The notes beneath the pieces were generated by a model. The model saw only the letters and a program-made list of their open reading frames with translations. It did no database searches and was not told where the DNA came from. The position numbers were made by a program, and so were the translations under genes. A stretch of DNA of 57,610 bases from Ignisphaera sp. (GTDB lineage Archaea > Thermoproteota > Thermoprotei_A > Sulfolobales > Ignisphaeraceae). The stretch spans positions 1 to 57,610 of the forward strand of contig JAVYNU010000011.1 of assembly GCA_038735125.1 (NCBI GenBank). The letters run 5' to 3'. Below, piece after piece: positions 28,958 through 31,889 of the stretch. Within the stretch, counting starts at the first letter, position 1. Every line of letters begins with the position of its first letter.

Positions 28958-30343
28958 TTGCACCTAGTCTGCCCTGTATGTGGATCTGCCTATGAATTCG
29001 ATATATACTCTAAGCTATGTCCAAAGTGCGGCTCACCACTATTTGTAATGCATAATGTTTCACAAGACACATTCAAAAGAGTTTTGCAAGAAGCTAAGCA
29101 CAGGTGGAGCTTTGGTGTCTGGGGTTTTCATGAAGTTCTACCAACAAATTCTATTGGGAAAACCATTGGAGAGGCGTGGACACCAATTATCAGAGTTGAC
29201 AACTTCAGTAGAACTACTGGTGTTGAGACGCTAGTGAAGAACGAGTCAAGAAACCCGAGTGGGACGTTCATTGATAGGGGAACGGCTGTCGATTCATATG
29301 TGGCTCATGTTAATGGCTTTAAAGATGTTGTTTCTGCTTCAACAGGTGACTACGCTATATCTTTGTCAATGTATTCTAAACTCTACGGCCTTAATACAAC
29401 ACATTATGTCCCTGCTTTCATTGAGCAGTGGAAGAGATATGTGCTAATGATATTGGGTGGCAAAGTTGTTGAGGTTGAGGACTATTCAAATGCTGTTAGG
29501 AAAGCTATGAGGGTCTCGAACAAAAATAATAGTTTCTTATCACTACCTCTATCTCCTACAGTCATAGATGGCTACAGGACAATTGTGTTTGAGGTTGTCA
29601 ATATTTTAAACGAAATCGATTGGATTGCCACACCTGTGGGCGATGGTGTACTAGCCACATCCATTCTAAAGGGCTTAAGAGAAATAGAGATCTATTTAGA
29701 AACTGAAACACCTAATATATTGGCTGTGAAACTTGGAGAAGAGGGGGATAAAATCAAAGACTTTTCAAAATCATTCTTAACAGAGTTGGGCGGCGGCATA
29801 CTCAGAGACACGTTAGATAAGATACTAAGTGAAAAAGGAGTTTTTGTAACAGTCGATAAAGAAGCAGTATATTCAGCAACAAACGAAATTGCCTATTATG
29901 ATGGTCTCTTAGTAGATCCTGTTGGCGCAACAAGTTTGGCAGGGGTTAAAAGAGCTGTGGAGCTAGGAGTTATTGATAGAGGAGATAAGGTACTAGCTAT
30001 AGTTAGCGGTAGCCCATCAAAAGACACATACATTCTCTTCAAGGTTCTGGAGTATGGTGGAAGAGGAGTAGAAAAATTTCTTAACTTTAAAGAGGGCTAC
30101 ATAAGTGAGGTGCAAATAGACATTCTGAAGATACTCTATGAATATCGACAAATTCATTTATATGAAATATGGAAAAAGCTTCGAGCCATGGGACATAAAA
30201 TATCTCTTCAAACTGTATATAGCCATATAAAGAAACTATTGGATAAAGGGTATGTGAAGGCTCTTGGTGTTGATGGAAGGAGGAAGATATATTCGATATC
30301 AGAGCTTGGAGAAGAATATCTAGAGAGTATATATAGTAGATAG
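28958..30343 (+). CDS. Threonine-synthase-like protein lacking PLP lysine, fused to winged helix
   Basis: A 461-aa fusion. Residues 1-30 form a zinc ribbon (C5, C8, C21, C24) and 60-370 a fold-type II PLP domain like threonine synthase. In the family the PLP lysine lies in NPTGSFKDR; here it reads NPSGTFIDRG with Ile105, and the codon is ATT. The phosphate and cofactor loops are altered too: STGDY for SxGNT (128-132) and PVGDG for PVGNG (226-230). Residues 381-461 are a winged helix-turn-helix of PadR type (ISEVQIDILKILYEY, then SLQTVYSHIKKLLDKGYV). Schiff-base catalysis is therefore not expected; a ligand-sensing transcription regulator is inferred. TTG at 28958 follows GGTG by 7 nt. Confidence 0.85.
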   Translation: MHLVCPVCGSAYEFDIYSKLCPKCGSPLFVMHNVSQDTFKRVLQEAKHRWSFGVWGFHEVLPTNSIGKTIGEAWTPIIRVDNFSRTTGVETLVKNESRNPSGTFIDRGTAVDSYVAHVNGFKDVVSASTGDYAISLSMYSKLYGLNTTHYVPAFIEQWKRYVLMILGGKVVEVEDYSNAVRKAMRVSNKNNSFLSLPLSPTVIDGYRTIVFEVVNILNEIDWIATPVGDGVLATSILKGLREIEIYLETETPNILAVKLGEEGDKIKDFSKSFLTELGGGILRDTLDKILSEKGVFVTVDKEAVYSATNEIAYYDGLLVDPVGATSLAGVKRAVELGVIDRGDKVLAIVSGSPSKDTYILFKVLEYGGRGVEKFLNFKEGYISEVQIDILKILYEYRQIHLYEIWKKLRAMGHKISLQTVYSHIKKLLDKGYVKALGVDGRRKIYSISELGEEYLESIYSR

Positions 30344-30497: not shown

Positions 30498-31889
30498 ATG
30501 GTTGACAGAATAAACAGGTTATTGATAGCTAACCGCGGAGAGATAGTGATAAGGATAATCAAAACTTGCAGAAAATTGGGCATAAAGACAATAGCTGTTT
30601 ATACTAGCGTTGATAGTGATGCTATGCATGTTAAGCTTGCTGATGAAGCCTATTCACTGGGTTCCGATCCCTATGGCTATCTAGATATAGATAAAATCGT
30701 TTCGGTTATTAAGAAGGCTGGTGCTGATGCTGTTCACCCTGGTTATGGCTTCTTATCTGAAAACGCCAATTTTGCTAAGGCTGTTGAGGATTCTGGGGCG
30801 ATTTGGGTTGGCCCAAAATGGAATGTGATAGAACTCTTAGAGTCAAAGTCCATGGTAAGATCAATTGCTCACAGCATTGGAGTTCCGATAGTGCCAGGCT
30901 CTATAGCTCCTGTCACGCTTGAGGAGGCTAAGAAGATTTCTGAGGAGGTTGGCTTTCCTGTTTTGATTAAAGCTGATAGGGGTGGTGGTGGTAGGGGTAT
31001 TAGAATTGCCAATAATTTAGATGAACTTGAAAGGCTTTTTCTGATTGCATCAAAAGAGGTTGAAACATCATTTAAAGGTTCAAAGCTCTACATAGAGAAG
31101 TTTCTTCCAAAGGTAAGACACATAGAGATTCAAATACTTGCAGATACCCATGGAAATGTTGTTGCTCTTGGTGAAAGAGAGTGTAGCATCCAAAGAAGAT
31201 ATCAGAAAGTTATCGAGGAAGCACCATCGCCCATTATAACAGATGATCATAGGAAGAAGTTATATGAATATGCAATAAAATTTATGAAACATGTCAAATA
31301 CGTCAATGCAGGCACCATAGAATTTATCAGAGATGAGAAAGGAAACTTCTATCTAATTGAGGTTAATAAAAGGATACAAGTTGAACACCCAGTTACAGAA
31401 GCTGTAACAGGGATTGATATTGTTGAGCAACAAATAAAGATAGCTGAGGGAAGGGAGCTAGAAATAAGAGATAATATATACAAATTTAATGGCCATGCAA
31501 TAGAGGCTAGGGTTTATGCCGAAGACCCAGACAAGATGCTTCCATCACCTGGGAAGATATCATGGGTAAGGTTTCCAGATACCAAGAATGTTAGAATAGA
31601 CCATGCTATTGCGCCAGGGGTGGAGATACCACCTTTTTATGATCCGATGATAGCAAAGGTCATTGCTTGGGGAAGCACAAGGGAAGAGGCCAGGAAAAAC
31701 CTAGTTAACGCACTATCAAACTTTGAGATTAGTGGTATTAAAACATCGATACCACTACTTATAGAGATTCTGAACACCAAAGAGTTTATCAGTGGAGATT
31801 ACAACACATTATTCTTGGGATATTACCTAGAGCAGAGAAAAATATCCAAAAATGCATTGGTTAGTGGAAACAGAGAAAAAGTTTATTAA
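30498..31889 (+). CDS. accC: Biotin carboxylase (ATP-grasp)
   Basis: A 463-aa biotin carboxylase subunit, which uses ATP and bicarbonate to carboxylate biotin on a carrier protein; archaeal versions serve acetyl/propionyl-CoA carboxylase of the CO2-fixing cycles or fatty acid metabolism. Signatures are LLIANRGEIVIRII, VHPGYGFLSENANFA, IKADRGGGGRGIRIA (ATP loop), ERECSIQRRYQKVIEEAPSP and IEVNKRIQVEHPVTE. The N-K-R in the last motif replaces the common N-P/T-R. Neither biotin carrier, carboxyltransferase nor biotin ligase is found nearby. ATG at 30498. It is followed after 39 bp by a small membrane protein. Confidence 0.93.
   Translation: MVDRINRLLIANRGEIVIRIIKTCRKLGIKTIAVYTSVDSDAMHVKLADEAYSLGSDPYGYLDIDKIVSVIKKAGADAVHPGYGFLSENANFAKAVEDSGAIWVGPKWNVIELLESKSMVRSIAHSIGVPIVPGSIAPVTLEEAKKISEEVGFPVLIKADRGGGGRGIRIANNLDELERLFLIASKEVETSFKGSKLYIEKFLPKVRHIEIQILADTHGNVVALGERECSIQRRYQKVIEEAPSPIITDDHRKKLYEYAIKFMKHVKYVNAGTIEFIRDEKGNFYLIEVNKRIQVEHPVTEAVTGIDIVEQQIKIAEGRELEIRDNIYKFNGHAIEARVYAEDPDKMLPSPGKISWVRFPDTKNVRIDHAIAPGVEIPPFYDPMIAKVIAWGSTREEARKNLVNALSNFEISGIKTSIPLLIEILNTKEFISGDYNTLFLGYYLEQRKISKNALVSGNREKVY

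Follow-up and report, generated by a model that had tools for sequence, protein, structure and literature searches.

A lysine-less relative of threonine synthase with a C-terminal winged helix, probably a vitamin B6-responsive regulator in Thermoproteota

The window analysed here is a stretch of 57,610 nucleotides from contig JAVYNU010000011.1 of Ignisphaera sp. (assembly GCA_038735125.1; genome G000), and one of its genes encodes a protein that appears to descend from threonine synthase while failing the features that define that enzyme, from which we infer a lack of catalysis. It is probably a one-component, B6-responsive regulator, of a family predicted to control B6 supply across the Thermoproteota. 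Because relatives across the phylum adjoin genes of B6 uptake and synthesis, we read it as a probable B6 switch that had so far gone unrecognised. The architecture of the protein, the loss of its Schiff-base lysine, the conservation of both across the family, the gene neighbourhoods, the shared promoter elements and the phyletic pattern are observed; it is inferred that the protein binds DNA, which effector it senses, that it forms dimers and whether it represses or activates. We also lean, with reservation, towards the wider reading that B6-responsive factors arose phylum-wide in these archaea from threonine synthase, by loss of the lysine and gain of a C-terminal winged helix, independently of MocR/PdxR and in two branches controlling B6 uptake and PLP synthesis.

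The protein is encoded by a single open frame that joins a zinc ribbon, a fold-type II PLP-enzyme core (PALP) and a PadR-like winged helix (Table 1), as a preliminary description made from the letters alone had recognised; the Pfam models PALP, FUR and PadR are all matched above their cut-offs. The cysteine quartet of the ribbon is retained by nearly all family members in the alignment, and the PALP core finds threonine synthases in the PDB (2d1f and others). The winged helix has weak PDB matches to Fur and PadR proteins, and its subtype is uncertain because FUR (PF01475, residues 388-449, 29.6 bits, cut-off 23.1) slightly outscores PadR (PF03551, residues 389-456, 27.8 bits, cut-off 27). With a pLDDT of 38, the structure model made from the window protein and its orthologue L008 was left out of fold searches, so comparison at the level of the fold rests on sequence.

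Table 1. Features of the regulator gene and its start region (positions in the window)
Feature	Position	Strand	Remark
Lysine-less threonine-synthase-like ORF with C-terminal winged helix	28958..30343	+	461 aa, TTG start; dN/dS calculated against L008
Zinc ribbon, N-terminal (Cys 5, 8, 21, 24)	28970..29029	+	four Cys invariant in alignment A1
PALP core (fold-type II PLP-enzyme), residues 71-351	29168..30010	+	Pfam PF00291, E 7e-47
NPSGTFIDR motif	29252..29278	+	Ile105 (ATT, 29270-29272) in place of Schiff-base Lys
STGD for SxGN (Asn to Asp), residues 128-131	29339..29350	+	sequence, alignment
PVGD for PVGN (phosphate-loop Asn to Asp), residues 226-229	29633..29644	+	sequence, alignment
Winged helix-turn-helix, C-terminal, PadR/Fur-like, about residues 382-457	30101..30328	+	Pfam above cut-offs
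Perfect inverted repeat TAGGTGC-N8-GCACCTA over start codon	28945..28966	.	genome's only exact copy

The isoleucine that had been read at the position of the family lysine stands at residue 105, where lysine is found in 20 of the 20 canonical threonine synthases without a winged helix that were aligned. It is kept by L008, which is 82% identical to the window protein, and by the other relatives within the genus, and a dN/dS of 0.095/0.784 = 0.12 between the window gene and L008 indicates purifying selection; the isoleucine is thus neither an error of sequencing nor a sign of gene decay. The same genome encodes a separate canonical, lysine-bearing threonine synthase (C3:31410-32552), and genomes with the regulator in general retain such an enzyme.

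Full-length matches covering both core and winged helix are present across the Thermoproteota. Among 101 members, chosen solely because the match reached into the winged helix (L008 and L117 are two records of one gene), 99 have no lysine at the Schiff-base position; the residues found there are Arg (49), Ile (18), Leu (16), Met (6), Thr (5), Val (2), Phe (1), Tyr (1), Ala (1) and Lys (2). The alignment that the preliminary description had proposed as its check thus finds the change of lysine and the winged-helix tail together throughout the family. Two findings had been named in advance that would refute the proposal. One was the existence of orthologues with the lysine but no tail, and a search for these gave none; the two lysine-bearing members (L174 6610-8019 and L193 4662-6071, with NPTNSFKDR) both nest in the Arg clade and keep the tail. 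The other, a second lysine placed to form the Schiff base together with demonstrated enzyme activity, has no support in the family alignment, in which no core column gained a conserved lysine and Lys94 is equally conserved in the enzymes.

A FastTree phylogeny of the PALP core places the canonical enzymes in one clade (support 1.0) and the winged-helix proteins in another (0.968); two lysine-bearing paralogues without a winged helix fall inside the latter with weak support (0.247). The winged-helix clade has two halves, an Arg clade and one with mostly hydrophobic residues at the lysine position, to which the window protein belongs. A second, shorter lysine-less subfamily of about 375 aa, found from pdxST loci, has the motif NPTGSYADR and retains the winged helix. 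The NCBIfam model NF004170 (PRK05638), named “threonine synthase”, spans the full length of these proteins including the C-terminal domain and models the Arg clade. The window protein stays below the cut-offs of both this model (172.6 bits, cut-off 421) and TIGR00260 (62.8 bits, cut-off 167.1). Arg-clade relatives exceed the NF004170 cut-off and have arginine at the catalytic position, so the “equivalog” name of the model looks wrong, and databases are probably labelling a likely B6-responsive gene switch as an enzyme. The label, the retained fold and the two members with lysine could be cited in favour of an enzyme, either a threonine synthase or some other lyase, that works without the Schiff-base lysine under control of its winged helix. 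Given the diversity of residues that have replaced the lysine, the absence of a new conserved one in the core, the canonical enzyme in the same genome and the low NF004170 score, we consider catalysis by the window protein extremely improbable.

Erosion of the active site goes beyond the lysine. The aspartates reported in the SxGN and PVGN loops are present, and the comparison refines the claim by making them a trait mainly of the window's family: the change in SxGN is found in 8 of 9 of its members, plus its near clade, and the asparagine is retained in 64 of 65 members from other classes, though nearly all of these lack the lysine. Since the SxGN asparagine and the Gly-rich loop are mostly kept in the other classes, PLP could still sit there non-covalently. 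Residues of the PLP site have eroded further in the window's family (Asn to Asp; the loop reads GDGV, with PVGDGVL in the window protein as against PVGNAGN in ThrC), and PLP may perhaps not be bound at all. Outside this family, 21 of 116 columns that are invariant in canonical enzymes are lost in more than 80% of members. Losses lie around the substrate-phosphate site and comprise N-S...R, the Thr after STGN and the loop Asn, which we take to be the residues that hold the substrate phosphate in threonine synthase. Together with the lack of a new lysine, these losses argue against catalysis and against a sensor of phosphohomoserine. Three ligands had been proposed, an amino acid, PLP or phosphohomoserine; the last is disfavoured because threonine-synthase-invariant columns near the substrate phosphate are gone, and B6 or PLP is favoured, with ligand binding unproven.

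The case for B6 comes from the neighbours of the relatives. The commonest neighbour cluster encodes an ECF S-component-like membrane protein, which was found at 55 of 100 loci, in 40 genera and 21 families; its gene usually follows the regulator directly in the same orientation, or else is divergent, and the ECF ATPase and T component are also present in about 20 loci. Three representative linked S components match PF07155, the family of PdxU and PdxU2/HmpT (PMC9997740), and the sole PDB match of the one that was compared is chain S of 4HZU, that is HmpT/PdxU2, a protein that holds pyridoxamine (PMC4860826). The linked S components differ from HmpT/PdxU2 in being archaeal, about 250 aa long and, in many loci, beside their own ATPase and T component. 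Genes for PLP synthesis are also neighbours: the regulator is divergent from pdxS-pdxT in L107, where the pair was identified by curated models, and in L182; in G043 a long-form regulator lies immediately upstream of pdxS; and the second subfamily occurs in or beside the pdxST operons of families f1, f8 and f9, as well as alone in several genomes without pdxS.

Among the observations that run counter to a B6 role are two on gene order. The window gene has no B6 gene beside it at its own locus, and in family f23 the regulator is divergent from thrC, an arrangement that suits a threonine-related role. One could accordingly imagine a pseudo-threonine-synthase regulator with threonine or phosphohomoserine as its effector and with thrC and amino-acid genes as its targets; its core is derived from threonine synthase, and at seven f23 loci a canonical thrC lies nearby on the opposite strand, followed in two of them by a putative homoserine dehydrogenase gene (identified by reading only). 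This linkage was seen in f23 only, against B6-transporter linkage in 21 families, and such a sensor would also have to be reconciled with the lost phosphate-site columns and with the canonical threonine synthase kept by regulator-bearing genomes. We therefore regard it as unlikely, without dismissing it.

A B6-responsive regulator is also suggested by a phyletic comparison of 80 genomes, in which related genomes were treated as independent, so that none of the p values is corrected for kinship. The ECF-S gene is present in 49 of 50 genomes with the regulator, as against 11 of 30 without it, and the sole exception is G043, the genome with the regulator upstream of pdxS. Genomes in which regulator and ECF genes are linked rarely have pdxS (4 of 34, as against 29 of 46 of the others; p 3e-6). 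The same comparison with thiC as a control gave p 0.07, and the pdxS association persists within thiC-bearing genomes (p 1e-4). These figures bear on the possibility that the family regulates the supply of thiamine or its hydroxymethylpyrimidine (HMP) precursor. HmpT, a member of PF07155, was originally believed to carry hydroxymethylpyrimidine, and the regulator is often followed by an AIRS/ThiL-like kinase gene (AIRS in 18 loci, below the HypE and ThiL cut-offs). Such a role is nevertheless very unlikely in view of the linkage to pdxST, the promoter element common to ecfS and pdxS described below, the anticorrelation of the linked system with pdxS and not clearly with thiC, and the demonstration that HmpT holds pyridoxamine (PMC4860826).

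Within the genus of the window the question is whether the B6 role of other lineages extends to this gene. It is followed by a biotin carboxylase gene (30498-31889), with possible co-transcription. In six genomes of the genus such a gene comes first or second downstream of the regulator, and in five of the six it has the same orientation. An unrelated role here, for example in biotin or carboxylation metabolism, with the B6 role left to other lineages, would fit this arrangement and the PLP-site residues of the window gene, which are the most eroded. We give this little credence, since the ECF-S gene is retained in all six regulator-bearing genomes of the genus and their ecfS promoters carry CGATTA repeats with a period of 13 beside a TATA-like CTTAT (degenerate in G003 and G009), an element that is absent from the ecfS promoter of G007, which has no such regulator. 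The same or a degenerate element is found in the pdxS promoters of G003, G004 and G009, where no second regulator was found, and is missing from those of G000, G005 and G006, where a second regulator is present. The exact pattern occurs only four times in 13 genomes, at ecfS of G000, G005 and G006 and at pdxS of G003, and matches with two mismatches are at chance level except at ecfS and pdxS of G004. Within this genus no copy of the element was seen in the promoter of the regulator gene itself, and no experiment ties it to proteins of the window type, so that its being their target is unproven. A search of five other genomes of the genus showed no conservation of the inverted repeat over the start codon of the window gene; it is a possible operator, likewise unproven.

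In other lineages a different element was found. Promoters between the regulator and divergent genes yielded the palindrome ATATAAG-N6-CYTATAT, with an information content of 18.2 as against 11.5-12.3 in shuffles. An exact search of 20 genomes with ATATAAG-N6-CYTAYAT returned eight sites, all eight just upstream of a regulator gene and four of them outside the training set (G318, G216, G201 and G361); the reversed-pattern control gave five matches. The palindrome also occurs between the regulator and pdxS in L182, and its position upstream of relatives' regulator genes gives indirect support to DNA binding. Divergent TATA boxes as its sole cause were considered and rejected: the palindrome is present in L190 and L114 without a close divergent gene, and there is no high score in the Arg clade. 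A Gibbs search for palindromes in that clade (f9; f14/f23) found nothing clearly above shuffles.

Taken as a B6-responsive regulator, the protein would most likely work as follows. The zinc-ribbon/PALP core, probably a dimer as in the related enzymes, would have become an effector-sensing domain on losing the Schiff-base lysine; the effector, held non-covalently, would most likely be PLP, a different B6 vitamer or an adduct of PLP with an amino acid. Through its C-terminal winged helix the protein would recognise the palindrome or repeats that lie at core promoters of B6 genes, the predicted targets being an HmpT/PdxU2-type ECF transporter and, in some lineages, PLP synthase (pdxST). It could act as repressor or activator, and wherever palindrome and core promoter overlap, repression is the likelier mode. 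The window gene would most likely control the unlinked ECF operon on contig C10 of its genome, and control of pdxST would be likely in sister genomes without a second regulator.

The preliminary description had seen in the protein a fold-type II counterpart of MocR/PdxR that regulates and is not an enzyme, and this receives support from the joint occurrence of lysine loss and winged helix across the phylum, the lack of a replacement lysine, the separate canonical ThrC, the linkage of relatives to B6 genes and the promoter elements common to both. Like MocR/PdxR, the family fuses a PLP-enzyme-derived domain to a winged helix, is linked (in its relatives, not at the window locus) to pdxST and a B6-type transporter, and has PLP or its adduct as predicted effector, with PLP binding by the archaeal family itself an inference. 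MocR regulators have been reported absent from Archaea, and the known PLP-fold one-component regulators, MocR/PdxR/GabR, use fold type I (PMC5320631). MocR/PdxR are bacterial, with a fold-type I aminotransferase domain and an N-terminal GntR-type winged helix, whereas the archaeal family has a fold-type II PALP core, a C-terminal PadR/Fur-type winged helix and no catalytic lysine. Judged by its domains, the window protein would thus work like MocR/PdxR without belonging to them, having another fold and another winged helix at the other end. ThrC (NF004170/PRK05638, TIGR00260) shares the zinc ribbon and PALP core, and the window family differs in the lost lysine, several lost active-site columns and the gained winged helix. 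Relatives of fold-type II PLP enzymes also serve in signalling in CymR-CysK of Bacillus and CYSL-1/EGL-9 of C. elegans, where the PLP-fold protein works through a separate partner; the archaeal family instead has its DNA-binding domain fused. For CymR, CysK figures in PMC6522883 as a controller of its activity.

Our literature searches found no description of this protein family and, within the library searched, no archaeal B6 regulator. If the reading is right, the family supplies one and shows that regulators built on a PLP-enzyme fold have also evolved from another such fold. The widely used label “threonine synthase” (NF004170) would then need correction, and the family would offer a way to approach B6 auxotrophy, B6 transporters and perhaps the missing B6 kinase of the Thermoproteota. 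An AIRS-family (HypE/ThiL/SelD-like) gene lies near the regulator in 18 loci (e.g. L102 5321-6334, L188 5502-6512, L248 4155-5174); where it accompanies regulator and B6-type ECF gene it falls below the cut-offs of the curated HypE and ThiL models, and it may encode a B6 kinase that has not yet been identified in archaea.

Several loci carry broken copies of these genes. On contig C8 of the window genome (L196 5001-7000), pdxT and the second regulator are split over several frames beside pdxS (59196-59819), whereas in G005 pdxT is intact and the second regulator has a long frame; decay and assembly errors cannot be distinguished in G000. Contig C49 of G001 (L246 4522-6467) carries relics of pdxT and of the regulator linked to pdxST; this genome has no pdxS and has apparently lost the whole B6 synthesis operon. 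In G085, a genome with pdxS, a fragment of 85 aa matching the N-terminus of the regulator lies just upstream of ECF S-A-T genes (L253 4503-4757) and looks like a decayed regulator.
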